From Pseudomonadota bacterium (lineage in GTDB: Bacteria > Desulfobacterota > Syntrophorhabdia > Syntrophorhabdales > Syntrophorhabdaceae): a stretch of 43,501 bases of DNA. Positions 1 through 38,707 of the stretch are shown here, in pieces. A model generated the notes under the pieces. The model had not been told where the DNA came from. It ran no database searches and saw only the letters and a program-made list of their open reading frames with translations. The DNA lies in NCBI GenBank assembly GCA_026388315.1, contig JAPLKA010000117.1, positions 1 to 43,501 of the forward strand, given 5' to 3'. The position numbers were made by a program, and so were the translations under genes. How positions within the stretch are numbered: position 1 is the first letter of the stretch; each line of letters opens with the position of its first letter.

Positions 1-381
1 AATCATATTCCGGAAAAAGTCCCTCCACATTATCCACCGATACCCCCAACATATTGTATTTACTGGTTAATTATACCATATACGGCACACTTAATCCACG
101 GAATAGTTACGGATGAGGGGATTATTTCACAGGTTCTACCCGGCTTCGGACAAATCAGGCCGGCCCAGACACGGCACTGGCCGCAGGCTTAACCTCCAGC
201 CGGGAACCCGCATGAACTTTTGCGGGTGGCCACCAAGGCATGCTTGAAGTCGCGACTCGCAAAAAGTTCTTCCGGCCATAACGCAATTCATTGTATCCTT
301 ATCTATCATGCCATATCGATATTCACTGTTCCGTCGAAGAGTTCATTTTTATCTTTAAGATGGTAGAACACAAGAATATAT
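1..381. other. Gene-free left edge with one inverted repeat
   Basis: I see no convincing reading frame here. An imperfect inverted repeat pairs GAACTTTTGCG (214-224) with CGCAAAAAGTTC (258-269), which could form a stem with a loop of about 33 nt. A single DnaA-box-like word, TTATCCACC, lies at 30-38 but has no companions. Nothing else is recognisable. Confidence 0.4.
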
Positions 382-410
382 TTGAATTTTCCGTATTGCA
401 GGGTTAGAAT
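382..410 (+). promoter_or_regulatory. Candidate sigma-70 promoter of the parB-like gene
   Basis: TTGAAT (382-387), a 17-bp spacer and TAGAAT (405-410) fit a sigma-70 promoter. It ends 26 bp before the ATG at 437. A GAGGGG ribosome-binding site lies at 427-432. Confidence 0.5.
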
Positions 411-436
411 TTCAACAAAAAACACAGAGGGGCAAT

Positions 437-1387
437 ATGGCGACGAAGAAGAATAGTACCGTACAGGAAACAAACCCGGAGTTTCTCTATGTTCCCATAG
501 GGAATATCGTTGTGTTGGAACAGGTCAGATCGAATGTCAACATTGAATCAGATTCATTCAAAGCTCTTGTACAATCCATTAAAGACAAAGGCATCTTAGA
601 GCCTCTCCTTGTAACAAGAGGAGATGGCGACTCATACACGCTTATCTGCGGGGAGAGGCGTCTTGAAGCAGCCCGGCAGCTCGAACTTGAATTAGTACCG
701 GTGCGGATCATAGAAGCAGGTAAGGAATCAGGTGAGACCATAGCCCTTCAACTCACAGAGAACCTCCAGCGAGAAGATTTAAACCCTATGGATCAGGCAA
801 AGGGGATATTGGCATATATACAGGCAAGACATCCTGATAAGGGGTATGATGTGGATGGGGTAATGAGTGAGTTGGTGAGCTACGACCTTAAGCCTGACTC
901 CGTATCGCCTGAAATGACAGACACGGTGTCTGTCATTTCTCAAATAGTAGGAAAGTCAATACGGACGCTGTCTCGCACGATTTCACTTTTAAAACTTTCC
1001 CCTGAGATTCAGGCAGCGATTTCGGAGGGGACACTCCAAGTTTCCCAGGGATATCTCTTCGCAGCCAACCTCGAATGTCCCGACCGTGCGAAGATATTCA
1101 CCGACATCATGAAGACACCAGTGACCAACCCCGTCCTGAACAATCTGCTCACAGCATACAAAAAAGTCAAACCAGTCCCGGGTGTTGCAAAGCCACTACC
1201 CATGAAGAAGCAGATTGCCGGCTTACGATCCTTTGAATCACGCATTGAGATGGGCTTCGCAACATACACGAGAACTGACCTTGTGACACTTCTTGATGAG
1301 CTGCATGTTTTCTGTGCTTTAGTGGAACTGCGGATACCGATTGCCCCGGAACCTCCGCCGGAGAAGAAAAAGCCACCACAGGTGTGA
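437..1387 (+). CDS. ParB/RepB/Spo0J-family DNA-binding protein
   Basis: This 316-residue protein has ParB-family hallmarks. The ParB/sulfiredoxin-like N-domain carries GERRLEAARQL (about residues 72-82) and ENLQREDLNPMDQAKG (about 108-123). A KorB/HTH-like region follows (SQIVGKSIRTLSRTISLLKLSPEIQ). Family members bind parS-like sites and some are CTP switches. No parA gene lies beside it and the setting is accessory, so a solitary ParB-like regulator or mobile-element gene fits better than the chromosomal segregation ParB. Its middle (EMTDTVSVIS) is encoded by a perfect 29-bp palindrome just before the HTH. Decayed copies of the same HTH segment occur at about 3018-3085, 3167-3300 and 16605-16775. 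The start is the ATG after GAGGGG. Confidence 0.8.
   Translation: MATKKNSTVQETNPEFLYVPIGNIVVLEQVRSNVNIESDSFKALVQSIKDKGILEPLLVTRGDGDSYTLICGERRLEAARQLELELVPVRIIEAGKESGETIALQLTENLQREDLNPMDQAKGILAYIQARHPDKGYDVDGVMSELVSYDLKPDSVSPEMTDTVSVISQIVGKSIRTLSRTISLLKLSPEIQAAISEGTLQVSQGYLFAANLECPDRAKIFTDIMKTPVTNPVLNNLLTAYKKVKPVPGVAKPLPMKKQIAGLRSFESRIEMGFATYTRTDLVTLLDELHVFCALVELRIPIAPEPPPEKKKPPQV
911..939. repeat. 29-bp perfect palindrome inside parB
   Basis: The arms are GAAATGACAGACAC (911-924) and its exact complement (926-939) around a single central G (925). It is translated in frame as EMTDTVSVIS. Related sequences at 3027-3055 and 3176-3196 keep the GACAC-G-GTGTC core. Their outer arms differ but remain self-complementary. 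Confidence 0.85.
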
Positions 1388-1679
1388 AAAGGGCCGTGAT
1401 TCGTGAATCGTGATTAGTCAAACCAATTACGAATTACGAGTTTTAAATGGAGCGGAGAGCGGGTAGACGCAGACTTCAGCCTGCGTGGAAGGGGAGAGCA
1501 AAACCGCGAATCGATATAAGGCACCCCAAAATAAAGGAAGCTCTGTTTTATTGCTGTTGAGCACTCCTTCCTGAAGTCGATAGTTTGCCATTTTCTTTTA
1601 ATGTTAAATCTTTCAGACGGTAATAAATTAGATTTTCACTTGCATACTATCAAAGATTTAGAGAAAATAGAAAAGGAAC
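1388..1679. repeat. Intergenic stretch with word repeats and a hairpin
   Basis: No gene is visible. At about 1397-1440 there are short near-tandem words of the GTGATTC/GTGAATC and AATTACGA type. A hairpin pairs ACGCAG (1467-1472) with CTGCGT (1481-1486) inside a GTAGACGCAG..CAGCCTGCG string. The last 100 bp are AT-rich and lead into the next gene, whose ribosome-binding site is AAAAGGAAC. Confidence 0.45.
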
Positions 1680-2762
1680 ATGGATAACTCAAAAGAACAC
1701 AAGTGGAAATTATTTGAAAAGCTTGTAACAGCTATTCATGTTGCTGAAGGTCGGGGCGCAGAAGTTTTCTGGGATAAGAAAATAAATGGTCGCCAATTTG
1801 ATGTTGTCATAAAATTTAAGCATGGCTTTTATGAATATCTCACGGTTATAGAATGTAAAAATTATGCCAACCCAATATCGGTAGAAAAAGTAGAGGCATT
1901 TGTCACAAAAAGCCAAGATGCAAATGCCGATAAAGCAATAGTTGTTTCTTCGTCAGGCTTTCAAGAAGGCTGTTTTAATGTTGCCAAAATACACAATGTT
2001 GAACTCTACACATTAAACGAGATAAGCAAAATTCCTGATAAGCTCCTAAGCTCTCAGCTAACCCCGGCCTTAAATATTTATGATGTTGAGCTTACGCTAA
2101 GTAAGGGGAAAAAAGTAAAACTTCCTAAAGAAAGCAACAAATTCACATATTTTATATACAACTCTGTTATTTACCAAGGAGAAAAGACTTGTTCTATACA
2201 AGCACTCATTGAAAAAGAATTAAGAAAAAATGTTGCCATACCGAAACAAGTAGAGCAGATCTTGCATATAGCTGTTGATTTGCCGTGTAGGGTCAGTATC
2301 CCTACTATTATAGACAATGCTCAACTATCTAAGATTACATTAAAATACAAGTTGATTATAGGACGCCCTCTGAAAAGCAATCAGAACCTTGATTTACATG
2401 TCGCACGTAAATTATTTACCAATTATGAATATAAAGATGTTCTCAAAGGAACAAAGATAGAGGTAGAGGGAAGTAAACTCAGAATTGGAATTGATACGAC
2501 TCTGCAACCGGGGAAATTTTATATTAATAATTTGGGGTTTTATTACTATTGTGACTCACTTGATGGTACAATAGCGACCGTTTATTTGGTAGAGTCTTAT
2601 CAGCATGGGCGCTTATTACAAACCGGCAGGTTTCAGATAGAAACAAAACATGCAGATCATTACTTAGAGGTCACCGAAAAGCATGATATAAAGAGATTGA
2701 AAAATAGACTAAATAAACTTAAAAATGCAGAAAAAAGTAACTCTGAAAGGAAATCTACATAG
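1680..2762 (+). CDS. Restriction endonuclease-like (Mrr-type) protein
   Basis: This is a 360-residue protein. Its N-terminal third fits the Mrr_cat branch of the PD-(D/E)xK nuclease fold. The fold elements are a helix (LFEKLVTAIHVAEGRGAEV), the metal-binding Asp in GRQFDVVI (about residue 40), the ExK signature in TVIECKNY (about residues 57-63), and a strand-helix VEAFVTKSQDANADKAIVVSSSGF. Residues 140-360 match nothing I recognise and end in a Lys-rich tail. The gene is clearly more AT-rich than the core genes downstream and lies between ParB-like debris, so I infer horizontal acquisition. There is no methyltransferase beside it, so a type IV-like (modification-dependent) or solitary defence nuclease is more likely than a classical restriction pair. 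ATG follows AAAAGGAAC. Confidence 0.7.
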   Translation: MDNSKEHKWKLFEKLVTAIHVAEGRGAEVFWDKKINGRQFDVVIKFKHGFYEYLTVIECKNYANPISVEKVEAFVTKSQDANADKAIVVSSSGFQEGCFNVAKIHNVELYTLNEISKIPDKLLSSQLTPALNIYDVELTLSKGKKVKLPKESNKFTYFIYNSVIYQGEKTCSIQALIEKELRKNVAIPKQVEQILHIAVDLPCRVSIPTIIDNAQLSKITLKYKLIIGRPLKSNQNLDLHVARKLFTNYEYKDVLKGTKIEVEGSKLRIGIDTTLQPGKFYINNLGFYYYCDSLDGTIATVYLVESYQHGRLLQTGRFQIETKHADHYLEVTEKHDIKRLKNRLNKLKNAEKSNSERKST

Positions 2763-3017
2763 TTAATCTATGATAGGAGCAGACAAGACTTTTATGTTCT
2801 AAGGAGACATCCTTTAAAAAACAAGAAACAGCTTGACGTTCCTTTCGAACACGTTAGAAGCAGAGATATTCTTAAGGAAAGAAATAACTTTGGGAAGTAA
2901 TAGCCCTCTCTTTCTCTCGGTAATCCTTGTTTTTAGGAAACCGCGAAGCCCACGCTTTGTAGGTGCAGTTATTACGTATAGTAATTTGAAATATTTACTT
3001 TTTATTACATTGAGGAC

Positions 3018-3085
3018 CTGCCGGAGGATGTTGTTGACACGGTGTCAACAACATCATAAATCTCTGTAAAGTCAACACTGCCGCC
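3018..3085 (+). pseudogene. Decayed ParB fragment with its own 29-bp palindrome
   Basis: Translated in one frame this reads P-E-D-V-V-D-T-V-S-T-T-S-stop-I-S-V-K-S-T-L. It aligns with P-E-M-T-D-T-V-S-V-I-S-Q-I-V-G-K-S-I-R-T of the intact ParB at 437-1387. The palindrome spans 3027-3055, with arms GATGTTGTTGACAC and the exact complement around G3041. It sits at the same position as the parB palindrome, but only the GACAC-G-GTGTC core is shared. Confidence 0.55.
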
Positions 3086-3101
3086 GGAAATACCATTCTT
3101 T

Positions 3102-3139
3102 GAGATTGCCACACTTCCTGGAGGTCGCTCGCGATGACA
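3102..3139. repeat. Dispersed repeat-like string
   Basis: GAGATTGCCAC at 3102-3112, followed by CGCTCGCGATGACA at 3126-3139, resembles a dispersed intergenic repeat I recognise from other bacterial genomes. The assignment is by eye and only one copy is present in this window. Confidence 0.35.
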
Positions 3140-3166
3140 GGTAAAGGGGAGACCGGAGGACCTATC

Positions 3167-3300
3167 CAAAGGAAGTGACGGACACGGTGTCCGTCATCGC
3201 TAAAATCTCTGGAAAGTCAATACGGACAATGTTTAACGTGGTTTAACTTTTGATAAATTCTGACGAGATTCAGATGGCAATCCGAAATGAAGGCAGTGGA
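3167..3300 (+). pseudogene. Decayed ParB HTH fragment with a 21-bp palindrome
   Basis: In one frame this reads P-K-E-V-T-D-T-V-S-V-I-A-K-I-S-G-K-S-I-R-T-M, then a stop, then L-L-I-N-S-D-E-I-Q-M-A-I-R-N-E-G. It is collinear with ParB residues around the HTH (TDTVSVISQIVGKSIRT..LLKLSPEIQAAISEG). The palindrome at 3176-3196 has arms TGACGGACAC and its complement around G3186. Compared with parB, an A-to-G change in the left arm is matched by T-to-C in the right arm. Confidence 0.65.
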
Positions 3301-3353
3301 TAGTAAATAGTGGATAGTAAAAGATGAAAGGGGAAAGCTGATAGTTGATGATT

Positions 3354-3440
3354 TGTTGCCCAAATATACATATAACCAATAATATAGAATATGAGCAGGG
3401 AGCGAAACTGTGTTCCTGCGGATATCATATTTGGGCAACA
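3354..3440. repeat. MITE-like element with 14-bp terminal inverted repeats
   Basis: TGTTGCCCAAATAT (3354-3367) is exactly complementary to 3427-3440, and 59 bp lie between. An inner stem pairs GCAGGGA with TTCCTGC within the loop. There is no coding capacity and no obvious target-site duplication. The short size, perfect terminal repeats and accessory setting suggest a miniature non-autonomous element or a long hairpin. The preceding bases (about 3294-3350) hold GGATAGTAAATAGT word repeats. Confidence 0.5.
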
Positions 3441-3580
3441 GGCTGTTATCTTCTAACCTTTACCCCTTCAGCCATCAATTCTTAATGGGTTACTGAGCGG
3501 AAAATGAAATAGCTGTTGATTACCACATTTCCTTATGATAAAAAATTCTATATACCCAAAAAAACAAGGCGAGAGTCTGA

Positions 3581-4156
3581 TTGACCATTAATGAAGCAAA
3601 TCCATTGAGAAGAACTGGTGACACAAAAAGAAACACTATAGTTTGTATTGTCTGCACTGTTATCATATTATTCATTATCCCGGATATGGCGTATGCCTTC
3701 AAACAGACAGACCTGGATAAACTCCTGGCAACAAAACAGTGCCAATGGTGCGACCTGCGAAACGCTGACCTCTCTGATGCGCAGCTCTCCGGTGCGCAAA
3801 TCGCCAATGCCAACCTGTCAGGCGCAAACCTATCCGGCGCCGACCTGTCAGATGCCAACCTTTCCGGTGCTGTGATGTCCGGCGCTAACCTCCACAATGC
3901 TAATCTGTCCGGCGCATACTTGCGCGGCGCCAAACTGCACAACGCCGACCTGTCAGGCGCCGACCTGTCAAAAGCAAGGTTGAACAACGCCAACCTGTCA
4001 GATGCCGACCTGTCAGATGCAAACTTTTCTGGTGCCAATCTTTCGGGCACCACCTGGGAAGATGGGAAAAAATGCGATGATGACTCAATAGGACAGTGCA
4101 CCAGGGCCATCTCTCCCGCTAATCGTGGAAGCCTCGGAGGAGGGATTCCTTTTTAG
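3581..4156 (+). CDS. Secreted pentapeptide-repeat protein
   Basis: This 191-residue protein starts with TTG behind AAGGCGAG. It has a signal peptide: basic N-region ([10 protein letters not shown]), hydrophobic [15 protein letters not shown], and an AYA cleavage site near residue 39. A CxWC-type motif (CQWCDL) follows, then about 20 A(D/N)LSG-type pentapeptide repeats (about residues 58-160) that form a right-handed quadrilateral beta-helix in known structures. The C-terminus is short and unique ([17 protein letters not shown]..). CxWC plus A(D/N)LxG proteins are common in anaerobes and of unknown function. The repeats make the GC-rich antisense frame look open, but that frame is a shadow. 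Confidence 0.75.
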
Positions 4157-4460
4157 CCACGTTATTGAAGGCCAAACTCTGAGGCTGGATGTTTTCCGTA
4201 AGCCCTCAGTCTTGTGAGATATTGTCAGAAAAATTGTCTCTGGAGTAAGCATCGAAGCATTATCGGGTAACCCATCATGACGAGAATGAACGTTCCCATA
4301 GGGACGATGGGCAGGGATGAGCCCACTTCAGGCAGCCTCCGCCCTTGCCCATCGAGTGAGTTTGAGTCATAGAAAGGGTAATAATGCTGAGTTGGCGAAC
4401 GGAAGAGATATTTTCCAGTCTAATAACTGATGAGGGGATACTATTTTCTTCCATTTTATC
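4157..4460. other. Leader region before rpsB with a long stem-loop
   Basis: There is no gene. A near-perfect stem pairs CGATGGGCAGGG (4305-4316) with CCCTTGCCCATCG (4342-4354), with a one-base bulge and a loop of about 25 nt. It could be a terminator-like structure for the upstream gene (no T-tract follows), a repeat, or a regulatory element. Nothing else is recognisable. Confidence 0.4.
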
Positions 4461-16589: not shown

Positions 16590-16604
16590 ATAGAAACAGT
16601 TTCT

Positions 16605-16775
16605 ATGACTCTGGAAATCTCTGGAAAGACAGCAAAGACGCTGTACAACGGGTTTTCACTTTTAAAAAATTCTCCTGAAATTCAGGCAGTGATCCGGGCA
16701 GGAAATCTCCCTGTTTCTCAGGGGTATCTCTTTGCAGCGAACCTCGAATGCCCCGATCTTAGAAACAGTTTATAG
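16605..16775 (+). pseudogene. ParB HTH fragment, short open frame
   Basis: A 56-codon open frame encodes ISGKTAKTLYNGFSLL, then KNSPEIQAVIRAG, then VSQGYLFAANLECPD. It closely matches residues around the HTH of the ParB at 437-1387. It lacks the N-domain and C-domain. It starts within a TAGAAAC-A-GTTTCTA palindrome (16591-16605) and ends in a near-copy of that sequence (TAGAAACAGTTTATAG, 16760-16775), so the fragment is bracketed by direct repeats. It could be a relic or a mini-protein; no ribosome-binding site is evident. Confidence 0.65.
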
Positions 16776-19664: not shown

Positions 19665-19686
19665 GGGGTCTACCGCGGTAGACCCC
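19665..19686 (-). terminator. 22-bp perfect palindrome after the glutamate synthase gene
   Basis: GGGGTCTACCG is followed directly by its exact complement (19665-19686), 15 bp beyond the stop of the minus-strand gene ending at 19701. It would form a GC-rich hairpin in the transcript. No T-run follows (ATTAAACTATTT), so it may be a weak terminator, an RNA 3' stabiliser or a protein-binding site. Confidence 0.45.
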
Positions 19687-22834: not shown

Positions 22835-23761
22835 CTAATGTATTACCGGTCTTGGATACAGTCCCGCTTCTTCAACAATCTGAGGGACTTTCTGCTCCCA
22901 TTCGATAGCCATGATGTGGATACCGGCAACACCCTTTATCGCGCGGACCCTCTCGATGAGTTCAACGCAGATATTGATGCCTTCATCGGCTGCCTTTTCC
23001 TTGGAGACACCTTTTAACCGGTCAATCATCTCCTCCGGTACGTCCATACCCGGAACCGATGCCTTCATGTAACGAGCCATGCCGACCGATTTGAATGGGG
23101 TGATTCCTGCAAGAATATACATCTTTTCGTGGACACCGAGGTCGCGTACCATCTCCATCCATTTTTCGAACTTTTCCACATTAAAGACACACTGAGTCTG
23201 AACAAACTGGGCGCCGGCTGCCGCCTTTTTTGCGAGTCTCATAGCCCTTATCTCGAACGGGTCTGCAAAGGGGTTCTCTGCACAACCGATAAACAGGTTA
23301 GGCCTTCCCTTCACTTCTTCCCCGCTTATAAATTTCCCCTCATCCCTCATCCGCTTTACGGTCTGGATGAGCTGAATGGAATCGATATCAAAGACATTTT
23401 TTGCTGTTGGGTGGTCGCCGAAGCTCTGGTGGTCGCCTGAGAGACAAAGAAGATTATTGATGCCCCATGCTGCCGCCCCCAGGATATCGCTCTGAATAGC
23501 AATCCTGTTTCGGTCCCTGCAAACCATCTGCATCACAGGATCAAAGCCCATCTCTTTCAGTATGAGGGAGGCCGAAAAACTGCTCATCCTGACAACGCTT
23601 GTCTGATTATCAGTAACATTCACGCTGTCAACATAGCCTTTCAGGAAAGCACCTTTCTTCTTTACTGCTTCCGGGTCAGCGCCCCGTGGAGGACCGCATT
23701 CTGAGGTGACGGCAAAGGCGCCGCTTGCCAACACCTTTTCCAAATTGCTTCCCGTACTCAT
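22835..23761 (-). CDS. metF: Methylenetetrahydrofolate reductase MetF, copy 1
   Basis: This 308-residue TIM-barrel flavoprotein reduces methylene-THF to methyl-THF (or the reverse, in syntrophic oxidation). Key motifs are AVTSECGPPRGAD, SVNVTDNQTSVVRMSS, MQMVCRDRNRIAIQSDILGAAAWGINNLLCLSGDHQSFGDHP (folate/FAD region), ENPFADPFEIRAMRLAKKAAAGAQFVQTQCVF and YILAGITP. The N-terminal catalytic domain stands alone, which is the form that works with the separate Fe-S/zinc subunit MetV. The start overlaps metV1 by 4 bp. It is last in the 16-kb operon and is a collinear paralogue of the gene at 37024-37947. Confidence 0.9.
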   Translation of the reverse strand: MSTGSNLEKVLASGAFAVTSECGPPRGADPEAVKKKGAFLKGYVDSVNVTDNQTSVVRMSSFSASLILKEMGFDPVMQMVCRDRNRIAIQSDILGAAAWGINNLLCLSGDHQSFGDHPTAKNVFDIDSIQLIQTVKRMRDEGKFISGEEVKGRPNLFIGCAENPFADPFEIRAMRLAKKAAAGAQFVQTQCVFNVEKFEKWMEMVRDLGVHEKMYILAGITPFKSVGMARYMKASVPGMDVPEEMIDRLKGVSKEKAADEGINICVELIERVRAIKGVAGIHIMAIEWEQKVPQIVEEAGLYPRPVIH

Positions 23762-24426
23762 ATCCTTAAATCCTCCCTTACCCTCTTTCTCGGACCGCCA
23801 TCCCTGCTTGCCGACCAGTCTTTGGTCGGTTGTATCTCAAGATATTTCTCCATCATATTCATCTCTTTCAGCCTGTCCACGATGAGCTGCCATGCGCAGG
23901 GCACATCTTTATTTATCTCGCAGAAACCCCCCTGGGAGCCGCCGCAGGGACCATTGAATATACTCTTTGCACATCGTGAAACAGGGCAGATACCAAGGGT
24001 CTTATCGAGTATGCAGTTTCCGCACCCCTGACATCTTTCTTTCCAGACCCCCTGTTCCTCGGAACTTCCCATGAAAGTGGTATTAACGGCAGGAACTACA
24101 TACTTGTTTCTGTATGCTTCGGCCATAGACTGTATGCCGCACCCGCAAGCCATGGAGATCACCACATCACATTCATCCACAAAGGATTTTGCCTCTACTG
24201 TATATTCAGGGTCACATTGCCTCTCCAGTGTGTGTTCCTTCACCTCAACAGGGATGCCGTCCTTTGCCCTCACAAGTCGTATCTCCGATGCAAGGACCGC
24301 TACCTCTTTCGCCCCGCCTGCAGAGCAGACCGTAACACATTCGTTGCAGCCGAGAAGCAGTATCTTCGTATATGGTTTTACCATATCCATGATCTCTTCA
24401 AAGGGTTTTCGGTTCGCTACTATCAT
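23758..24426 (-). CDS. metV: MetV-type methylene-THF reductase partner, copy 1
   Basis: This 222-residue protein matches the MetV family that partners MetF in acetogens. An N-terminal cysteine set GCNECVTVC (C27, C30, C34) precedes a domain with SMACGCGIQSMAE. The C-terminal Fe-S/zinc region is CQGCGNCILDKTLGICPVSRCAKSIFNGPCGGSQGGFC, then CAWQLIVDRL. It probably relays electrons from the MvhD/Hdr module to the MetF flavin. The ATG follows AAGGAGT. Confidence 0.88.
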   Translation of the reverse strand: MIVANRKPFEEIMDMVKPYTKILLLGCNECVTVCSAGGAKEVAVLASEIRLVRAKDGIPVEVKEHTLERQCDPEYTVEAKSFVDECDVVISMACGCGIQSMAEAYRNKYVVPAVNTTFMGSSEEQGVWKERCQGCGNCILDKTLGICPVSRCAKSIFNGPCGGSQGGFCEINKDVPCAWQLIVDRLKEMNMMEKYLEIQPTKDWSASRDGGPRKRVREDLRI

Positions 24427-24446
24427 AATGTACTCCTTAGTAAATG

Positions 24447-24911
24447 TTAAGGGTTCGAGTGTTGTTCGCTTGGCCCCTCGACCCCTTGGCCCCTCGACCC
24501 CTGTAATTTTGCCGGATTCGGCCCCAAGGCCCTTATCTTCTCCGTCATCTCACGCGCCGCTTCTGCAAAACGCCGACCCTCTGCCGCCGACAGGTTGTAC
24601 ATTACCACCCTGTTGCCGCCGATACCGGTTTCATCAAGCAGTTGTTTTACGTATTCTACACGTTTTCTTGCCCTCAGGTTTCCGGTCAGAAAATGGCAGT
24701 CACCCTCAAGACAGCCTACAAGACAGACTCCATCGGCGCCATTTTCAAAGGCCTTCAGGATGAGAACAATGTCCACCCTGCCCGTACAGGGCACCTTCAC
24801 TATCTTAATGCTTGCCGGATACGAGAGTCTCATCGAACCTGCCAGGTCCGCTGCGGTATACCCTCAGTATTCGCAGCAAAAAGCTATAATATCCGGTTCA
24901 AAATGTTCCAT
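24447..24911 (-). CDS. mvhD: MvhD/FrhD-type hydrogenase iron-sulfur subunit, probable selenoprotein, copy 1
   Basis: The frame runs through an in-frame TGA (24866-24864) at residue 16. The protein reads EPDIIAFCCEY-[TGA]-GYTAADLAGSMRLSYPASIKIVKVPCTGRVD, which is continuous MvhD sequence with TGA in the place of a conserved cluster Cys. MvhD/FrhD selenoproteins with Sec are known in methanogens and Deltaproteobacteria, and a SECIS-like hairpin follows. Later motifs are GCLEGDCHFLTGNLRARKR and ALGPNPAKL. The 2Fe-2S protein normally carries electrons between HdrA and a partner oxidoreductase. The start is ATG 24911, 20 bp past the hdrA stop. The C-terminal tail after NPAKL comes from a tandem repeat. 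A naive call would split it at 24864 or start it at 24833. Confidence 0.82.
24470..24501 (-). repeat. Two 16-bp tandem units in the mvhD1 tail
   Basis: TTGGCCCCTCGACCCC is repeated exactly at 24470-24485 and 24486-24501 on the plus strand. The minus-strand reading frame passes through it and gives a unique Gly/Glu-rich tail to MvhD1. Confidence 0.8.
24835..24849 (-). promoter_or_regulatory. SECIS-like hairpin after the mvhD1 UGA
   Basis: On the minus strand, GGACCU-GGC-AGGUUC folds as a 6-bp stem (one G-U pair) beginning 14 nt after UGA. The apical loop has the GG expected of bacterial SECIS elements. A possible lower stem pairs GGGUAU, directly after UGA, with GUAUCC downstream. SelB dependence is inferred. 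Confidence 0.55.
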
Positions 24912-24931
24912 CAAACGCTCTACGCTCCACG

Positions 24932-27900
24932 CTATATTCCCACACACAGTGCCTTCACCTTCTCTGTCAACTGGACATCCGTATAGTGCATAAGATCGAT
25001 TGCCTTTGCAGGACACTCTGCAGCACAGGAGCCGCACCCCTTGCATTTGCTTATATCAATCTCTGCCTCGCCTTTTGTATTAATAACAGGTACAGAGTAG
25101 GGGCATACCCTTACACAGGTGAGGCATGCAGCACACTTTTCACCTTCCACGTGTGCAACAACCCCGCCGACGGCCATCTTCTCTTTTGAGAGGATCGTGA
25201 TTGCCCGTGCCACCGCTCCCTCTGCCTGGGTGATACTTTCCTGTATATTCTTGGGGGAATGGGCAAGACCGCACAGGAACATGCCATCCGAGGCAAAATC
25301 TACAGGCCTCAGTTTCATATGGGCTTCAAGGAAGAAGCCTTCATTCGTTCTCGGGACCTTGAGGAGCGTTGCCAGCCCCTGATTATCTCCAGGGACAATG
25401 GCGCTGCTCAGTGCAACAAGGTCGGTTTCGAAGATAATCTGTTCCATAATCGATGGGTCATGGCAGGTCATATATAACAAACCGTCCTTGAGTTCAAGGG
25501 TCGGAGGGTTTTCTATGTCATATCTGATAAACCTTACACCAAGTCGCCTTGCGTGGAGGTAATACTTTTCGAGAAACCCGTAAGTCCTGATGTCTCTGTA
25601 TAGGATCACCACATCACCGTCGGGGTTTCTCTCCTTCAGTGTTATTGCATTTTTTATGGCAGTCGAGCAGCAGACCCTGCTGCAATAAGGCCTTTCTTCG
25701 TCCCTTGAACCCACGCACTGGATCATTGTGCAGCGTTTGAACAGGGGAAGTCGTTCTTCTATGATCTGTTTTTCAAGCTCTGCCTGTGTTAAAATTCTCC
25801 TGTCTTCGCCGTATAAGTACTTACCCATTGGCTTGAATTCTTGTCCACCTGTAGCAACGACAATAATACCATGCTCTATCGTTACCGGGGCTTGCGCCTG
25901 TCCCCGTAAGGGGGTCGCCCCCTCCACAAGCAAAGCTCGTGGAGCCTCCCCCTCAAGCTCGCAGTGCTCGCTGGTTAGATGTTCTATAGGAACTTGCCTG
26001 TGGGAACCTACTACTGTTTTAAAATTCCCCTTGAAACCCGAATGCTCCACGACAGTGGCGTTCATTTTCACATGAATGAGCGGATGACTTGTCACCTTTT
26101 CAACGGTTTCTCTCAGAAATTCCTGTATGTCTGTGCCGTCGAGGGTATGGTAAATATGCTGCAGATTACCTCCAAGCTTATTCTCTTTTTCTATAAGGAA
26201 AACCTCAAAGTTCTGGTTGGCAAGTTTTAATGCAGCAGTCATACCGGCAACGCCGCCGCCCACAACAAGCGCCCTTTTATTCACGTCAATTGTTACCTCT
26301 TTGAGGGGCTTTATAAAATTGGTGTTCATAACGGCCATTCTCACGAGGGTCTTTGCCTTCTCTGTGGCATCCTCTTTTTCGTGCATATGCACCCATGAAC
26401 ATTGATCCCGTATGTTGGCCATGTCAAAGAGGTATTTGTTAAGCCCTGCCTCGCGGATCGTTGCCCTGAAGAGCGGCTCGTGTGTCCGCGGCGAACAGGA
26501 GGCAACAACAACCCTGTTTAGCCTGTATTCGTCGATCATCTTTTTCATCTTGTCCTGCGTGTCCTGAGAACAGGTGAAAAGGTTCTCGTCGGACAGCACC
26601 ACATTGGGAAGGGTACTTGCGTAACGCTGTACCTCCGGGACATTTACCACGCCCCCGATATTGATACCGCAGTTACAGACAAAAACACCAATCCTTGGTT
26701 CTTCAGCATCCACGTCCTTCTCGTCAGGCAGTTCTTTAATAATAAGGTCTTTGCCACGCATATCAGCTATGACGGATCCCGCCTCACATGCGGCGGCGCT
26801 TGCCTGCATGACCGTCTCAGGAATATCTTTCGGGGATTCACAGGCGCCACATACAAAAATTCCCTCCCTGGAGGCGAGAAGTACATTTTTAGGGTTGGTC
26901 TTGATGAATCCGTACCCGTTAAGCTCAACACCTATTGTTGCTGCAAGGCGCGCAAGGTTCTTTGAGGGCCTCAATCCCACAGAGAGGACAATCAGGTCGA
27001 ATATTTCCGATTTGAGCTCTCCATCCTCGTCAATATAGGCAATCTCAACATCCTTTGTCTGGCGGTCTTCAAGCACCCTCGATACGAGGGATTTAACATA
27101 CCTTACCCCGTATTCCTTTCTTGCCCGCTCATAGTACTGGTCGAAGCCCTTCCCGTATGCCCTGATGTCCATGTAAAAGATGGTCGGTTCAATATCGTTC
27201 TGATGCTCTCTGGCAATAATGGCCTCTTTCGTTGCATACATACAGCATACAGAAGAACAGTATTCGTTCACCTTGTCCCTGCTGCCCACGCACTGGATAA
27301 AGGCGATCTTTTTGGGTATTTTCCCGTCGGAAGGCCTCATTACCACGCTTCCGGTAGGTCCCGTGGCAGAGAGGATTCTTTCAAATTCGACACTGGTAAC
27401 GACATTTTGATATATACCGTAGCCGAGTTCTTTTTTTGCATGGGCATCATATTCATCGAAGCCGCTTGCAATGATGATGCTTCCCACCTGAACTATTTCT
27501 TCAGATGGTCCTTCGAGGTAATCGATTGCTTCAGGCTTGCAGAACTCTTCACAGATCCTGCATCCCAGGCACTTCCTGCAATTGAGGCACCTTTCTGCCT
27601 CTTCCATGGCATCCTTCTCGCTCAAAGCAAGGTACACTTCGTCGAAGCCTTTTCGCTTATCTGCCGGTATTTCCGGTATGACAGCCCGCGCCTTCTTTTC
27701 TATAAAGGCCGGGACATCTTCCACAAGCTTGTCTTCCTGCGCAAGTCTGCCTTCCTTTAAACCTTTGCCTTCAAGGAACCGCTTGATGGATTCTGCCGCA
27801 GTCTGTCCCTGATGGACCGCATCTATTGCCGCTTTCGGTCCTGTAACTGCGTCCCCGCCCGCAAAAACACCTTTTACTGTGGTTTCCAGTGTCACCGGGT

Positions 27901-29437
27901 CAGTCTTGATCCTGCCGTCCCGGAGAAGCTCTATATTGGCCGGGCCTTTTAAAAACCCCGTATCCATGGCTTGCCCGATGGCGAGAATCACTGTATCGGC
28001 ATGAAAGCTTTGTGTTGTAAACTCATCATAACAGGGGCTGAACCTTCCCCCTTCGTCAAACACGTCACTGCACCGTTTACATTCTACCCCTGATACGATG
28101 CCGTTCGACGTGATAATCCGCTTTGGCCCCCATGTGGTGTGGATTTTAATGCCTTCTTCAACAGCCTGGTCAATCTCCCACGTGTGCGCCGGCATCTCGT
28201 CCCATTTCTCAAGGCAAGCCATGTGAACTTCATTCGCTCCAATTCTTTTGGCAGTTAATGCCACATCTATAGCCACATTACCGCCGCCGATGACCAAAAC
28301 TATTTTTCCGGTCTGTACAGGCTCACCCTTATTCACAGCCCTTAAAAAGTCTATGCCACCAATGACACCTTCTGCGTTTTCATTTTCAATGCCGAGGACT
28401 CTGCTGCCGTGGGCGCCAAGCCCGATAAATGTGGCATCAAAGGTATCAAAGATCTCGTCTGCGGGGATATCTTTCCCGACCCTCGTATTGTATGTAACCT
28501 CGATGCCCATCTTTTCCACAATGGAAACTTCCCTGGCAAGCTCTTCTTTGGGGAGCCTGTAGGCGGGGATACCAAGATAGAGCATACCACCCAATTTGTC
28601 GTGGGCTTCAAAGATCGTAACCGCATACCCGGCCTTCCTGAGGTCAATTGCACAGGCCAGACCTGCCGGCCCTCCGCCAATGATCGCCACCCTTTTATCC
28701 TTATCGGGGCCTGTTTCCGGAACAGGTATCTCCCTTTTATCCTTTTCGTAATCGGCCACAAACCGTTTCAAGGCGCAAATTGCAATAGGCTGGTCTGCCT
28801 TCCGGCCCCGCAGGCATACCTCCTCGCAGGGGTGGGCGCAAATACGCCCGATAATACCGGGGAACGGCAGCCTTTCTCTTATGAGGTCAAGGGCTTCGAG
28901 GAACTTGCCCTCGGCAATGAGGCCCACATAATCACGTGCATTGAGGTTTACAGGACAATGATTCACGCAGGGTGCGATCTCCCTGTCTATCATATATGTG
29001 GAAGGGATTGCCTGCGGGAAATTGATAAATGCCGCACTCCTTATTGACAACCCTTCGTTATAGTTGCTATCTACTTCCAACGGACAGCTTTGTGCGCAGA
29101 GTGCACAGGATGTACATTTTTCAGGCAATACCCGCCGCGGCCTTCTCTTTAATGTTACCGTGAAGTTACCGGCCGCACCCTCAAGACCCACCACCTCGGT
29201 ATTCATGAGAAGCTCTATGTTGGGATTCCTTCCAACCTCCACAAGTTTCGGGGCCATGATACACATGGAACAGTCATTGGTTGGGAAGGTCTTGTCGAGC
29301 TGAGACATATTCCCGCCAATATTCGGTTTTTCATCGGCAAGGTAAACCCGGAAACCTGACTCAACAAGATTAAGGGATGCCTCCATCCCGCCAATGCCGC
29401 CACCGATAACAAGGACCTTGCCTATCTTATCCGCCAT
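24932..29437 (-). CDS. hdrA: Giant HdrA: HdrA + GltD-like module + second HdrA + ferredoxin
   Basis: This 1501-residue flavin/Fe-S protein has the following order. Residues 1-150 are the HdrA start (VLVIGGGIGGMEASLNL, DCSMC, CTSCALCAQSCP). Residues about 155-565 are an inserted glutamate-synthase-small-subunit-like (GltD/NfnB-like) module: CVNHCPVNLNARDY..CAHPCEEVC, FAD-binding VAIIGGGPAGLACAIDLRKAGY, NAD(P)-binding VLVIGGGNVAIDVALTAKR, and FAGGDAVTGPKAAIDAV. At 617-900 the HdrA body resumes (CLNCRKCLGCRICEEFC, YCSSVCCMYATK). From 915 a second complete HdrA begins (GVFVCNCGINIGGVV; VVGGGVAGMTAALKLA; YCSRVCCSTAIK). It ends with two 4Fe-4S motifs (CAACLTCVRVCP, CKGCGSCAAECP). HdrA is the flavin hub for bifurcation in Hdr complexes. 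Residues 1151-1186 are a 36-residue repeat-derived insertion. Confidence 0.92.
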   Translation of the reverse strand: MADKIGKVLVIGGGIGGMEASLNLVESGFRVYLADEKPNIGGNMSQLDKTFPTNDCSMCIMAPKLVEVGRNPNIELLMNTEVVGLEGAAGNFTVTLKRRPRRVLPEKCTSCALCAQSCPLEVDSNYNEGLSIRSAAFINFPQAIPSTYMIDREIAPCVNHCPVNLNARDYVGLIAEGKFLEALDLIRERLPFPGIIGRICAHPCEEVCLRGRKADQPIAICALKRFVADYEKDKREIPVPETGPDKDKRVAIIGGGPAGLACAIDLRKAGYAVTIFEAHDKLGGMLYLGIPAYRLPKEELAREVSIVEKMGIEVTYNTRVGKDIPADEIFDTFDATFIGLGAHGSRVLGIENENAEGVIGGIDFLRAVNKGEPVQTGKIVLVIGGGNVAIDVALTAKRIGANEVHMACLEKWDEMPAHTWEIDQAVEEGIKIHTTWGPKRIITSNGIVSGVECKRCSDVFDEGGRFSPCYDEFTTQSFHADTVILAIGQAMDTGFLKGPANIELLRDGRIKTDPVTLETTVKGVFAGGDAVTGPKAAIDAVHQGQTAAESIKRFLEGKGLKEGRLAQEDKLVEDVPAFIEKKARAVIPEIPADKRKGFDEVYLALSEKDAMEEAERCLNCRKCLGCRICEEFCKPEAIDYLEGPSEEIVQVGSIIIASGFDEYDAHAKKELGYGIYQNVVTSVEFERILSATGPTGSVVMRPSDGKIPKKIAFIQCVGSRDKVNEYCSSVCCMYATKEAIIAREHQNDIEPTIFYMDIRAYGKGFDQYYERARKEYGVRYVKSLVSRVLEDRQTKDVEIAYIDEDGELKSEIFDLIVLSVGLRPSKNLARLAATIGVELNGYGFIKTNPKNVLLASREGIFVCGACESPKDIPETVMQASAAACEAGSVIADMRGKDLIIKELPDEKDVDAEEPRIGVFVCNCGINIGGVVNVPEVQRYASTLPNVVLSDENLFTCSQDTQDKMKKMIDEYRLNRVVVASCSPRTHEPLFRATIREAGLNKYLFDMANIRDQCSWVHMHEKEDATEKAKTLVRMAVMNTNFIKPLKEVTIDVNKRALVVGGGVAGMTAALKLANQNFEVFLIEKENKLGGNLQHIYHTLDGTDIQEFLRETVEKVTSHPLIHVKMNATVVEHSGFKGNFKTVVGSHRQVPIEHLTSEHCELEGEAPRALLVEGATPLRGQAQAPVTIEHGIIVVATGGQEFKPMGKYLYGEDRRILTQAELEKQIIEERLPLFKRCTMIQCVGSRDEERPYCSRVCCSTAIKNAITLKERNPDGDVVILYRDIRTYGFLEKYYLHARRLGVRFIRYDIENPPTLELKDGLLYMTCHDPSIMEQIIFETDLVALSSAIVPGDNQGLATLLKVPRTNEGFFLEAHMKLRPVDFASDGMFLCGLAHSPKNIQESITQAEGAVARAITILSKEKMAVGGVVAHVEGEKCAACLTCVRVCPYSVPVINTKGEAEIDISKCKGCGSCAAECPAKAIDLMHYTDVQLTEKVKALCVGI
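25871..25987 (-). repeat. 108-bp in-frame hairpin-rich insertion in hdrA with 9-bp flanking repeats
   Basis: ATGCTCTAT (25871-25879) and ATGTTCTAT (25979-25987), 8 of 9 identical, flank GC-rich DNA with a period of 108 bp (36 codons). The inside has strong dyads: CTCCACGAGC pairs with GCTTGTGGAG, and GGGGG-CGA-CCCCC. HdrA proteins normally run from a GxxxIEH-like strand directly to GIIVVATGG. Here one IEH starts the insert and a second IEH ends it. Confidence 0.7.
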
Positions 29438-29481
29438 ATCTTAAACCTGCCGTTGAATACGTGCGAGTTCTGTAAAATGTA

Positions 29482-29853
29482 TCAAGATATTTTCCTCCGA
29501 AACTTCGGGTCTCTTCCATCGTGTCCGGCTATCTCCACCAGGTTTTTTCTCATCATTTCCTTTATATGGGTAAACACCCTGTCTTTTTCAATGCCCAGTT
29601 TTTCAGAAAGACCTGATACTGTACCCGCACTCTGTGATAACACCTCAAGTATACGCGCCCTCTCAAATGTAGTATCGAGCAGGGGGTTAAAAACGAGCGA
29701 GAACTGCCTGTCAGTAAAACGTTCACCATATACGTTTCCTTCTTTCAGGGCATCCTTCTTTCCTATGAGCCGCTCAAGTCGCGCCGCTCCGTCAGGATCA
29801 TATGCCCTGATAAATGTTATTTTCTCTGTAATTTCTTTCAGTTCATCCATCAT
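29482..29853 (-). CDS. Small winged-helix protein between hdrB and hdrA
   Basis: This is a 123-residue protein. The N-terminal half has no clear family (ITFIRAYDPDGAARLERLIGKKDALKEGNVYGERFTDRQFS). The C-terminal half is a winged helix: RARILEVLSQSAGTVSGLSEKLGIEKDRVFTHIKEMMRKNLVEIAGHDGRDPKF. It overlaps the hdrB stop by ATGA, so it is translated with the Hdr subunits. It may be an operon-specific regulator or a structural piece. I do not recognise a named family. Confidence 0.65.
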   Translation of the reverse strand: MMDELKEITEKITFIRAYDPDGAARLERLIGKKDALKEGNVYGERFTDRQFSLVFNPLLDTTFERARILEVLSQSAGTVSGLSEKLGIEKDRVFTHIKEMMRKNLVEIAGHDGRDPKFRRKIS

Positions 29854-30713
29854 GTATTCGCTCTTTTCACCTTCTTCACCACTCCATCCACCGGTATGAT
29901 GTGCGACCCGCTGCCGGAAAGCTTTCCAAAGAGGGCAAGTTCAAAAACCTCGGACAAAAACAGGACGGGCAGATTATCCTCAGCCGTCCCGAGATAGGGC
30001 AAGAGGTCAAGGTTCATCTGGCAAAGCGGACAAGAGGTTACAATCATGTCTGCCCCGACTGCACGGGCCATATCCATAATCTTACTCGATAATCTTAACG
30101 TAGTGTCTTTGTTTGTGAGGGTTTTGCTTGCACCACAGCATTCCATTTTAAAAGGCCATTTTACAAGTTCTGTCCCCACTGCCCAGAGGAGGGTATCCAT
30201 GCTCACGGGGTCTTCAACATCATCGAAGGCCTTCACACCTGGGATCCTTGTCAGGACGCACCCGTAATAGGGGACAACCTTTATGGCAGAAAGGTTGTGT
30301 TGTATCCCCCTGGCGATTCGCTCAATCCCGACATAATCGTGAAATACTTCAATGATATTTTTTATCTCTATCGTACCGAGACACTGAAGGGGGGATATCA
30401 GTTTGTTGACTTCTTCTCTCAGTTCTTTATCTTTGAGCATCTTCTCATTGGTAATCCTGGACCTATTGTAGCAGGCTGAACAAGGCGCAAAGAAATGGTT
30501 GCCGTCGGCTTCCGCCATGGCTATATTCCTCGCAGCAAGGGCGTGCGCAAGCATTTCATCCACTGTGTGCGCAGCAGAGGCCCCGCAACAGGACCAATCG
30601 CCCAATTCCTTCAACCCGATCCCGTAAAAAGAGAATACCTCTTTGATCGATGCTTCGTAGAATTTACTCGATGTTTTTAATGAACATCCGGGGTAGTAGG
30701 TCAGCGTTGCCAT
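29850..30713 (-). CDS. hdrB: HdrB-like CCG-domain subunit
   Basis: This protein of about 287 residues has two cysteine-rich CCG domains. The first has YYPGCSLKTSS, WSCCGASAAH and APCSACYNRS. The second has VPYYGCVLTR, MECCGASKTLTNKD and TSCPLCQMNLD. In methanogens this subunit holds the two non-cubane 4Fe-4S clusters that reduce the heterodisulfide. In bacteria the acceptor is unknown and could be a thiol/disulfide or another module. The ATG at 30713 is preferred over TTG 30719. No clear ribosome-binding site is present because the upstream DNA is a tandem repeat. Confidence 0.88.
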   Translation of the reverse strand: MATLTYYPGCSLKTSSKFYEASIKEVFSFYGIGLKELGDWSCCGASAAHTVDEMLAHALAARNIAMAEADGNHFFAPCSACYNRSRITNEKMLKDKELREEVNKLISPLQCLGTIEIKNIIEVFHDYVGIERIARGIQHNLSAIKVVPYYGCVLTRIPGVKAFDDVEDPVSMDTLLWAVGTELVKWPFKMECCGASKTLTNKDTTLRLSSKIMDMARAVGADMIVTSCPLCQMNLDLLPYLGTAEDNLPVLFLSEVFELALFGKLSGSGSHIIPVDGVVKKVKRANT

Positions 30714-30719
30714 AGTCAA

Positions 30720-30830
30720 GGTTTTGAGTTTTGAGTTTTGAGTTTTGAGTTAAACACCCCAACAGAAAACTTACCGATGTTCTGCGTTTTAAAATCCGCA
30801 ATCCGCAATCCGCAATCCGCAATCCGCATT
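30720..30830. repeat. hdrC-hdrB gap made of tandem word repeats
   Basis: TTTTGAG is repeated in tandem about four times at 30722-30750, and CAATCCG about four times at 30798-30826, followed by TTTTACC/TTTCACC words. No gene or terminator is present. Confidence 0.75.
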
Positions 30831-31376
30831 TTACCTTTTACCTTTCACCTTCCCACCTTCTATCTTCTCGAATATCTCCCTCAACTGCTTCCTGTCCTTC
30901 ACGTTATGCGGGAGGATGCCCATCCTCCCTTTTAAAAACATGCCTATACCCATCTTTGTATCACTGAAAAGGTCTCTCTTTGCCAGCTTGTAGCGCATGA
31001 TCGCCTCCAGTTCATGGAGTTTTCCGTGCTTTCTCACGCTGTCCAGAAAGAAACTGTCAAAGAGCCACGTGTCTTTGTCTGCTTCACGATGCTCTTTTAC
31101 CGATATTTTCCGCAACGCGTCAAAGACATGGGCAACATCTATATCATTGGGGCATCTGACACTGCATGTTACGCATTGCAGGCATGTCCAGATGGTTTTC
31201 GATGCGAGAACCTTCTCCCTGTTGCCAAGTATGATGTGTCGTATGATCCTGTGTGGGAGTACATCCATTTCGGCTGCCACAGGGCAGCCATTTGTGCACT
31301 TATAGCACTGGTAGCATGTTGATATGCTCTCTCCCGATGCCTCCTCTGTTTCATGCAAAAATTCCAGGTTGTCCAT
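30831..31376 (-). CDS. hdrC: HdrC-like iron-sulfur subunit
   Basis: This 181-residue protein has two 4Fe-4S motifs. The first is CYQCYKCTNGCP (C21, C24, C27, C31), the second WTCLQCVTCSVRCP (about residues 63-76). This is the HdrC pattern that wires HdrA to HdrB. The C-terminal part (about 110-181) is helical and basic. The start has AAGGTTAC before ATG. It lies 28 bp after the glutamate synthase amidotransferase gene. Confidence 0.9.
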   Translation of the reverse strand: MDNLEFLHETEEASGESISTCYQCYKCTNGCPVAAEMDVLPHRIIRHIILGNREKVLASKTIWTCLQCVTCSVRCPNDIDVAHVFDALRKISVKEHREADKDTWLFDSFFLDSVRKHGKLHELEAIMRYKLAKRDLFSDTKMGIGMFLKGRMGILPHNVKDRKQLREIFEKIEGGKVKGKR

Positions 31377-31404
31377 GTAACCTTAAAAAAACCTCATGAA
31401 TGTA

Positions 31405-34092: not shown

Positions 34093-34093
34093 G

Positions 34094-35620
34094 TCAAAAC
34101 CTCTCAAGTTCTCCTTCAATCTCTTCCTGTTTTATATAATCAAGGTGGGCGAGAACATCGAAACGCCCCACCAGCTCTGATACGCTCTTCATGCCAAGCT
34201 TCTTCAGTATAGCAATAAGCTGATGGCGCCATGCCATATACATATTGATGATGCGCTGGCTACCCCATTCAAGTTCCATAAGGCCCGTAAGTTCTTCGTC
34301 CGTTGTGGCAATGCCCCGTGCGCAACCCCGGCCCGATTCACAGTGGTGACAGCGGATGCACTCAAGGGCAACAAGATCGGCAGTACCGAGGCAAACTCCA
34401 TCGGCGCCCATGGCAATAGCCTTTGCCATGTCATAGGCCGTGCGAATGCCACCGCTTGCTATAATCGTTATCTTGTCCCTGATCCCTTCTGTCAGGAGGA
34501 ATTTGTGAACCTTGGGAAGTGCGTACTCAATGGGCATGGCGATATTCTTTTTTGCTATATCGGGGGCAGCGCCTGTCCCGCCGTAGCTTCCGTCGAGTTG
34601 AACAATATGAGCTCCGGCATAGTAGCTTCCCACGGTTACCATATCCACATCGGTAGGTGTCGATACCTTCACCGACACGAGGGCCTTGGAATTGGTCTCC
34701 TTAATCCAGTCCACATGTTTCTTGTGATCTTCAACCGAGTAAACGCTGTGGAACGGAAAAGGGGAAAAGAGCGCACTGCCTTGTACGGCCTCGCGCATCT
34801 GTGCAACACGGGGGGTCACTTTATCTCCCAGCAGGTGTCCGCCGAGACCGGGTTTTGCACCCTGGGCATATTTGAACTCCACAATACGGACCCTTTTGAT
34901 CGTTTCTTCCCGTACACCAAAAAGTCCGGTTGCTACCTGTGTAATGATGTGGTCGTCGTAGTCCATGAGCTCTTCAGGGTAGCCCCCTTCACCAGTGCAG
35001 CAGAAGGTGCCCAGCGCTACGGCAGCCCTGACACGGGAAAGCATCGTTATGATACTTACCGAGCCGAAAGACATGCCCCCCAAATAAAAGGGCACGGGAA
35101 TCGTTATCTTTGGGCGGGAATCGTCCGAACGGTTCAACTCGATTGCTGTCGATACGTCCTCAAATCCCTCCTCGTTCCCCCTGTTTTCCTTTGGGAATAT
35201 GAAACGGAGTTTATCAAAGCCGCCCTCTGAATCACCCGTTTTGTAATTCAAGTCCTGATGCGGAATCTCGCCGGTCTCTGCCATATGCCAGGTGCTGGCA
35301 AGGAGGTCGCCAGTCCACCGTCTGTCACCCAGTATCTCAAAGGCAGGATTGACCGTCACGGTGATGGCCTTTTCAGGACACCTGTTTACGCAATAGAATT
35401 CGTTTGTGCTGCACGTAAACCCGGTACAGAAATGGTCACAGGCCGCCTTCGGCCATTTTGCACCTTTTTTATAGACACCATAAGGGCAGAGCTCAATACA
35501 TAACCCGCAGTTGTTACAGGATCTGTTTATTGCAATGCGGTATCTGCCAAGGGCATTCCTGAAGCGGCTCGGGATTTCCTTTACACTTGGAAAATCAAAT
35601 TTCTGCGGTTCGAATGACAT
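34094..35620 (-). CDS. Glutamate synthase FMN subunit with N-terminal ferredoxin domain
   Basis: This 508-residue protein has an N-terminal Fe-S region (C35, C38, C41, C45; further C61, C65, C70, C77, C81), then a full FMN barrel. The barrel shows IPVPFYLGGMSFGSVSIITMLSRVRAAVALG, EFKYAQGAKPGLGGHL, SVKVSTPTDVDMVTVGSYYAGAHIVQLDGSYGGTGAAPDIAKKN, and IIASGGIRTAYDMAKAIAMGADGVCLGTADLVALECIRCHHCESGRGCARG (3Fe-4S-type Cys set). This matches the archaeal-type split GltB2. The ATG at 35620 follows AGGGG; an upstream in-frame extension overlaps the neighbour and is unlikely. Confidence 0.87.
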   Translation of the reverse strand: MSFEPQKFDFPSVKEIPSRFRNALGRYRIAINRSCNNCGLCIELCPYGVYKKGAKWPKAACDHFCTGFTCSTNEFYCVNRCPEKAITVTVNPAFEILGDRRWTGDLLASTWHMAETGEIPHQDLNYKTGDSEGGFDKLRFIFPKENRGNEEGFEDVSTAIELNRSDDSRPKITIPVPFYLGGMSFGSVSIITMLSRVRAAVALGTFCCTGEGGYPEELMDYDDHIITQVATGLFGVREETIKRVRIVEFKYAQGAKPGLGGHLLGDKVTPRVAQMREAVQGSALFSPFPFHSVYSVEDHKKHVDWIKETNSKALVSVKVSTPTDVDMVTVGSYYAGAHIVQLDGSYGGTGAAPDIAKKNIAMPIEYALPKVHKFLLTEGIRDKITIIASGGIRTAYDMAKAIAMGADGVCLGTADLVALECIRCHHCESGRGCARGIATTDEELTGLMELEWGSQRIINMYMAWRHQLIAILKKLGMKSVSELVGRFDVLAHLDYIKQEEIEGELERF

Positions 35621-35624
35621 TAGC

Positions 35625-37010: not shown

Positions 37011-37023
37011 ATCGTCACTCCTC

Positions 37024-38612: not shown

Positions 38613-38707
38613 ACGTTTACTCCTTTAGTATTAGCGTGGAGCATGGAGCGTTTAGCCCCCGCTCTGCGAGCCCCCACTGCGTGAGGACAGGAACAGGCGT
38701 AGAGTCC
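38613..38707. repeat. metV2-mvhD2 gap with GC-rich word repeats
   Basis: GCGTGGAGCATGGAGCG-type words occur at about 38633-38650, and GCCCCCGCTCTGCGAGCCCCC at about 38656-38676. Part of this GC-rich string loosely resembles the hairpin DNA inserted in hdrA (shared CTCGCAG.GC). The metV2 ribosome-binding site (AAAGGAG) lies at the left end. Confidence 0.45.

Follow-up and report, generated by a model that had tools for sequence, protein, structure and literature searches.

The DNA examined here, called the window, is a stretch of 43,501 nucleotides that makes up an entire contig (C117) of the 3.8 Mb, 131-contig assembly GCA_026388315.1 of a Syntrophorhabdaceae bacterium. On its forward strand, at 437-1387, it carries an orphan ParB-like gene encoding 316 amino acids, and inside this gene, at 911-939, lies a perfect 29-bp odd palindrome, GAAATGACAGACAC-G-GTGTCTGTCATTTC. 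It is clear that this palindrome belongs to a large family. Its position recurs in 108 copies located by protein, the symmetry is kept while the sequence changes, and the arms coevolve with protein positions encoded outside the palindrome. Very probably, each palindrome is the binding (loading) site, similar to parS, of the ParB-type protein whose gene contains it, with paralogues and sites having diverged together; the palindrome at 911-939 would be the cognate site of the window protein. Direct binding by ParB, which the original prediction had listed next to hairpin formation and template switching, is strongly favoured, since covariation links the arms to residues of the recognition helix and the linker, whose codons lie outside the palindrome.

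The window protein has the features expected of the ParB family, namely an N-terminal CTPase-type domain with the CTP-box motifs (PF02195, E 3e-13), an HTH_ParB domain (PF17762, E 1.9e-7) and a C-terminal helical part. The evidence for a clamp driven by cytidine triphosphate (CTP) consists of the motifs. The AlphaFold2 model, with a mean pLDDT (predicted local distance difference test) of 84, resembles the structures of ParB, Noc and KorB, and places the recognition helix of the helix-turn-helix (HTH) at residues 175-186 and the preceding helix at 158-171, with residues 148-151 ending the helix before that.

In the genome of the window, all intact copies contain an odd palindrome immediately 5' to the HTH, and in each it is centred on the third base of one and the same codon, the almost invariant Thr163 (ACN, followed by G or T and then by T). 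In the window, the centre is base 925 and the 21-bp core spans 915-935. Copies were located independently of the palindrome, using either the 3' flank, which gave 67 places, or protein column T163, which gave 108 unique copies; stem positions 2-10 are paired in 90-100% and 91-98% of these, respectively. Between copies, the pairwise identity at the same positions is 0.26-0.6 once the fixed bases (A, C, T and A) are set aside. Five or more genomes contribute 117 distinct 21-mers with 75 distinct half-sites, and there is no single conserved dispersed palindrome of the repetitive extragenic palindrome (REP) type. Among the 117 distinct 21-mers, pairs ±3 to ±9 are of the Watson-Crick kind in 90-99% of cases, and a single position may show as many as four pair types. 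Shuffling lowers this pairing to 26-54%, and shifting the partner by 2-6 bases lowers it to 18-28%. The idea that the arms change by compensating substitutions is thus borne out, and a check of the genome-wide copies for random, unpaired arm differences found that pairing held; the pattern is not due to chance. The fixed positions are A-2, C-1 and T+2, together with T-10 and A+10 in most sites. The core GACAC-G-GTGTC that the original prediction had described is present in the three window palindromes for which it was given, but the core shared across the family is a wider one, T(N7)AC-N-(G/T)T(N7)A.

When half-site bases are compared with protein columns outside the palindrome, the mutual information is concentrated sharply in a few columns. 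The links are between residue 180 and ±3, 176 and both ±5 and ±4, 175 and ±5, 150 and ±6, 148 and ±7, and 155 and 152 and ±8, and mutual information is near zero for columns 177, 178 and 183-229. In the window gene, these residues lie in two segments of the forward strand, defined by mutual information, contingency tables and the AlphaFold2 helices. Codons 175-181 (959-979) belong to the recognition helix, where residues 175 and 176 covary with ±4/±5 and residue 180 with ±3. Codons 148-155 (878-901) form the linker after helix 139-151, where residues 148, 150, and 152 and 155 covary with ±7, ±6 and ±8, respectively. The contingency tables read like a code. Asparagine at 180 accompanies T at +3 (A:T) in 46/46 sites and arginine accompanies G (C:G) in 40/42, the two exceptions (L036 and L040) being partial copies; these are the classic pairings of asparagine with adenine and of arginine with guanine. 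At residue 176, the partners at +5 are R with C (34/34), K with C (18/18), P with A (10/10), Q with G (6/6) and M with T (6/6), and at residue 148 the partners at +7 are G for N or S (49/49), A for K (12/12) and C for V (5/5).

The recognition code is modular. Within strata of equal residue 176, the link of residue 180 to ±3 holds in 94/96 cases (shuffle maximum 78), and when residue 176 is constant (R, M or T) a swap at 180 alters ±3 alone; within strata of equal inner bases, the link of residue 148 to ±7 holds in 89/93 cases (shuffle maximum 68). A code learned in one genus (g1) was able to predict half-sites of another genus (g4) that were absent from the training set, with 27/27 correct from residue 180 to ±3 and 24/29 from residue 176 to ±5 (baseline 14 in both). 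On a backbone tree built without the HTH and palindrome region, residue 180 changes 27 times, and in 9/9 well-supported independent pairs the residue and the base change together.

In Caulobacter ParB, the counterparts of residues 175 and 180 are R173 and N178, according to an alignment of weak E-value that is ungapped over the HTH, including the GKS motif. In that protein, R173 reads guanine 1 of parS and N178 contacts parS (PMC7383237). A role of residues 148-155 as base readers would be new. In the mechanism that we propose, a ParB dimer would read the two half-sites, with residues 175/176 of the recognition helix at ±4 and ±5 and residue 180 at ±3, while the linker just before the HTH would read ±6 to ±8 through residues 148, 150 and 152/155. 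The gene family would have multiplied and its members diverged in specificity, each change in the protein being matched by symmetric changes in the site. More speculatively, the protein may behave like KorB and other ParB-type CTP clamps, loading at its own intragenic site and so limiting its own expression or marking its own locus. Given that the orphan CTP clamp KorB loads at an odd palindromic operator and silences promoters up to 1.5 kb away (PMC11790492), feedback on the gene's own transcription would be the simplest use, with the other sites giving wider occupancy; this is put forward tentatively, as somewhat less than an even prospect.

Several points weigh against binding of this kind, or reduce the weight of the evidence for it. 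The ±1 pair is broken in about a quarter of the sites (AC-N-TT), meaning that this pair is not required. The copies exchange cassettes by recombination, so the counts are not fully independent and the tree test alone is not decisive; the stratified tests and the prediction of novel half-sites reduce this dependence without removing it. Predictions from residues 150, 152 and 155 are weaker than those from 148 and 180, and linkage could explain some of the linker signal. Most of the genomes are fragmented assemblies, several of them metagenome-assembled genomes (MAGs). In addition, the role of these proteins need not be partition, given that the copies tested have no adjacent parA gene.

Outside the intact genes, symmetry and code part company. 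The 17 intact genes obey the rule for residue 180 and ±3 in 17/17 cases and that for residue 176 and ±5 in 16/16, while elsewhere, among 50 fragments and partial copies of which one is a false positive, the rules hold in 23/39 and 28/41. Stem pairing in these places stays high, at 8.68 of 9 positions compared with 8.82 of 9 in intact genes, despite a drop in the identity of the conserved flank from 0.962 to 0.846. Half-sites outside the intact set equal one of an intact paralogue of the same genome in 16/49 cases, where position-wise resampling gives 1.6; since at least four of the 16 (L002, L035, L038 and L041) come from incomplete copies or from an intact copy counted again, the excess is real but smaller than these figures. 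Several fragments, such as L067, L069, L073 and L012, fit a living paralogue and not their own helix remnant. This pattern suggests that non-coding fragments are kept as additional sites at which living paralogues load in trans, with exchange of palindrome cassettes by recombination as the alternative to such upkeep.

The window has three fragments of this family. Its four palindromes share one location within ParB-derived sequence, DNA resembling AATCTCCGGAAAGTCAAT beginning 18 nt 3' of the centre, and the perfect odd palindromes reported at 911-939, 3027-3055 and 3176-3196 were found at exactly these coordinates. The 29-bp palindrome at 3027-3055, GATGTTGTTGACAC-G-GTGTCAACAACATC, lies in a short non-coding ParB fragment and is proposed as a trans site. 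It has near-identical copies on contigs C105 and C109, and its half-site is that of the intact paralogue L020 (rows L012 and L015). The 21-bp palindrome at 3176-3196, TGACGGACAC-G-GTGTCCGTCA, is surrounded by an HTH fragment on the forward strand (3169-3285, residues 158-196 with one stop, tblastn E 3.2e-5) and shares its half-site with an intact ParB of another genus (L233). Under the code, the helix remnant of this fragment (R176, N180) mismatches the palindrome, making it one of the decoupled kind. The fourth palindrome, predicted near 16591, is present and distinct from the others; it is one pair longer than described, a perfect 17-bp palindrome at 16590-16606, ATAGAAAC-A-GTTTCTAT, with which a forward-strand fragment of 62% identity begins (16590-16763, residues 161-218, tblastn E 1e-14). 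It agrees with its own helix remnant, GKTAKTLYN, through K176 with C at +5 and N180 with T at +3.

The symmetry retained by dead fragments with diverged flanks would also be expected if a mutational mechanism, either template switching that corrects quasi-palindromes or gene conversion from one arm to the other, maintained it without selection for binding. In 427 kb of the genome, there are 28 odd palindromes with arms of at least 8 bases, of which 17 are centred on ACNGT; the other 11, as well as five even ones, fit the Markov expectation (6-9 odd and 5-11 even). Because palindromes not centred on ACNGT are at expectation, a generic excess, and with it template switching, is rejected. One-armed intermediates (INTERMEDIATES) also exist: AACAC-GTGAT (L033 and L248) stands between AACAC-GTGTT (L031) and ATCAC-GTGAT (L249 and L251), all five copies having the same helix, GKSIMTLHR. 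In L033 and L248, one arm was altered before the other, as expected under selection rather than simultaneous copying. Given that such a mechanism also makes no prediction of covariation with amino acids encoded 20-50 nt away, it is very unlikely to account for the palindromes. An mRNA hairpin kept by compensatory change fits the strong stem and its location within a coding region, but G-T pairs occupy just 11 of the 945 stem cells, the conserved T:A at ±10 and the ACNKT centre are unlike an RNA loop rule, no Rfam family matches, and the arms covary with DNA-reading residues, so that this explanation is extremely improbable.

The palindromes could instead be recognition structures of mobile elements, used in hairpin-dependent transposition or integron-like recombination, that disperse HTH fragments of about 100-150 bp and on which the link between protein and DNA hitch-hikes. 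The high copy number, the patchy distribution of the family and the many short fragments centred on a palindrome speak for this, as do the attC-like sequence beside some three-palindrome elements and the fact that the sister species (G002) has a different locus upstream of rpsB, with no ParB there. Hitch-hiking, however, should produce a linkage decaying with distance; the signal instead sits in isolated columns of the contact type whose neighbours are silent, and the dead fragments have lost the link to the adjacent helix (23/39, as above) yet keep their symmetry. The flanks of intact copies were compared for the conserved ends of a transposable unit and gave mosaic patches only, with no clear ends; in an empty-site comparison of one copy, its two flanks were on different contigs of the sister genome. 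Mobility and binding are compatible rather than exclusive, and mobility as the explanation of the symmetry and its link to the protein is unlikely.

The genome of the window, surveyed by searches and in 427 kb of contigs, has 98 tblastn matches to the window ParB. About 17 are intact or nearly intact paralogues of 53-82% identity, in which ENLQREDLNP is fully and GERR mostly conserved, and many fragment matches concentrate on residues ~148-200. Among 36 genomes of the same family, only five others have several close copies (about 40 each in G002, G005 and G016, 14 in G010 and 8 in G011), and the rest have few, mostly distant, ParB matches. The pattern GACACNGTGTC occurs 21 times in the genome of the window (G000) against 4 for a reversed control, and is in excess only in genomes with a large ParB expansion (G000 21/4, G002 18/3, G005 24/2 and G016 14/3, pattern/control), the count being 0-3 in the other 35 family genomes. 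A protein search identified as relatives lake-sediment MAGs and bins of Syntrophus or Syntrophobacterales, within the Desulfobacterota. Two homologues of 40-43% identity (L125 and L126) have an ACNGT palindrome at the same spot and residues matching the code; in homologues below about 40% identity, an ACNGT palindrome was not seen at the equivalent site. A more distant ParB-like gene (L179, positions 1941-1965, in G032) has a near-perfect 25-bp palindrome, CCAAACAGGCAAATTGCCTGTTTTG, just 5' of the HTH and with no ACNGT centre, which is possibly an independent case of the same arrangement.

Other features were noted among the copies. A decayed ParB lies 5' of surE in the sister species (L293, G002 C146) where the genome of the window has the intact L021, an instance of birth and death of copies at one locus. 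Five GACACTGTGTC palindromes lie within 3 kb at G005:C59:64803-67850, possibly a cluster of sites. A dispersed composite element (L315-L319) occurs in G000 at C84:6511, C11:3362, C54:68453, C128:63649 and C105:35229, and holds as many as three ACNGT palindromes, spaced 24 and ~75 bp from one another; adjoining it is the attC-like GTTGAGCCGGAGCGTTAGCGATCGGCTCCAAC, which recurs at C90 and C14. This element may be an integron cassette lacking open reading frames (ORFs) that carries ParB sites.

Switching of ParB specificity is known from ParB and Noc, and sites within the binder's own gene have precedents. In Bacillus subtilis, the ParB gene spo0J contains the parS of its own protein, an arrangement like the present one in having the binding site inside a ParB gene, and unlike it in being a canonical ParABS system with a single universal parS and no known diversification of paralogues. 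Phage lambda O is a DNA-binding protein with the ori iterons in its own coding sequence, protein and iterons differing together between phages; however, it is a replication initiator of unrelated fold with no known large paralogue family in one genome. The present family shares with ParB-parS and ParB/Noc the combination of ParB_N and HTH_ParB domains, a dimer reading a palindrome, and recognition-helix residues that set specificity (PMC7383237). It differs in that the tested copies lack an adjacent parA, in having 21-bp odd palindromes rather than a 16-bp even parS, and in having dozens of specificities per genome with the site in the gene just before its own HTH codons. No parA was found among the ten genes flanking six intact copies, which are unrelated (Fic, response regulator, ABC, IS110, patatin, cation efflux, M20, SurE, FabI-like and Bro-N), and no conserved operon partner, including one of the KorA type, was found beside the copies examined. 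The sites, being odd, do not match the canonical parS TGTTTCACGTGAAACA, although some (TTTCAC-N-GTGAAA) amount to parS-like halves with one extra central base. KorB of plasmid RK2 is likewise a ParB-type CTPase clamp acting as an orphan regulator, and the OB oligonucleotide contains the odd palindromic site TTTTAGC-G-GCTAAAA (PMC11790492); in the present family, an odd palindrome as putative operator and its coevolution with the HTH were seen. KorB has one specificity, dispersed promoter operators and the partner KorA, in contrast to the intragenic site of each paralogue here. Orphan ParB-like proteins linked to mobile elements also have the ParB-CTPase fold outside parAB operons and have diversified rapidly; the text of a survey of them (PMC12704722), searched for mentions of palindromes or of the gene of the protein itself, contained none. 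In the open-licence papers searched, no many-membered ParB family of one genome with intragenic, co-diversifying sites was found.

Given that every copy is a matched pair of protein and site, recognition of DNA by these proteins would be readable from genomes alone, and the approximately 75 half-sites in a handful of genomes would amount to an almost complete code, provided by nature, for recognition by an HTH of the ParB type. The family would also make it possible to test directly how proteins acquire new specificities while staying functional, and it supplies a large set of putatively orthogonal pairs of ParB and site, such as are now in use for multicolour labelling of DNA (e.g., PMC11798528). 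With nearly even confidence, we suggest a chromosome-wide network of mutually insulated ParB-type clamps, with at least 17 intact paralogues per genome having their own intragenic sites and about 45 non-coding fragments following living paralogues in trans. If this is true, the specificities would be driven apart by the avoidance of cross-loading, as in partition-based plasmid incompatibility.

Elsewhere in the window, a gene for an Mrr-type restriction endonuclease (1680-2762) lies immediately 3' of parB. Positions 1-4447, upstream of rpsB, form a variable region where G002 has unrelated sequence; G002 lacks the block of pentapeptide-repeat genes (3515-4447) that the window has between the rpsB leader and a 29-bp match (3486-3514). 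An intergenic, perfect 22-bp even palindrome, GGGGTCTACCGCGGTAGACCCC, is found at 19665-19686. At 22835-39160, the ORF list shows two similar gene sets, as if duplicated, each with a MetF-like gene (308 and 307 amino acids) and a partner of 222 amino acids, on either side of a large block of genes resembling HdrA and glutamate synthase.
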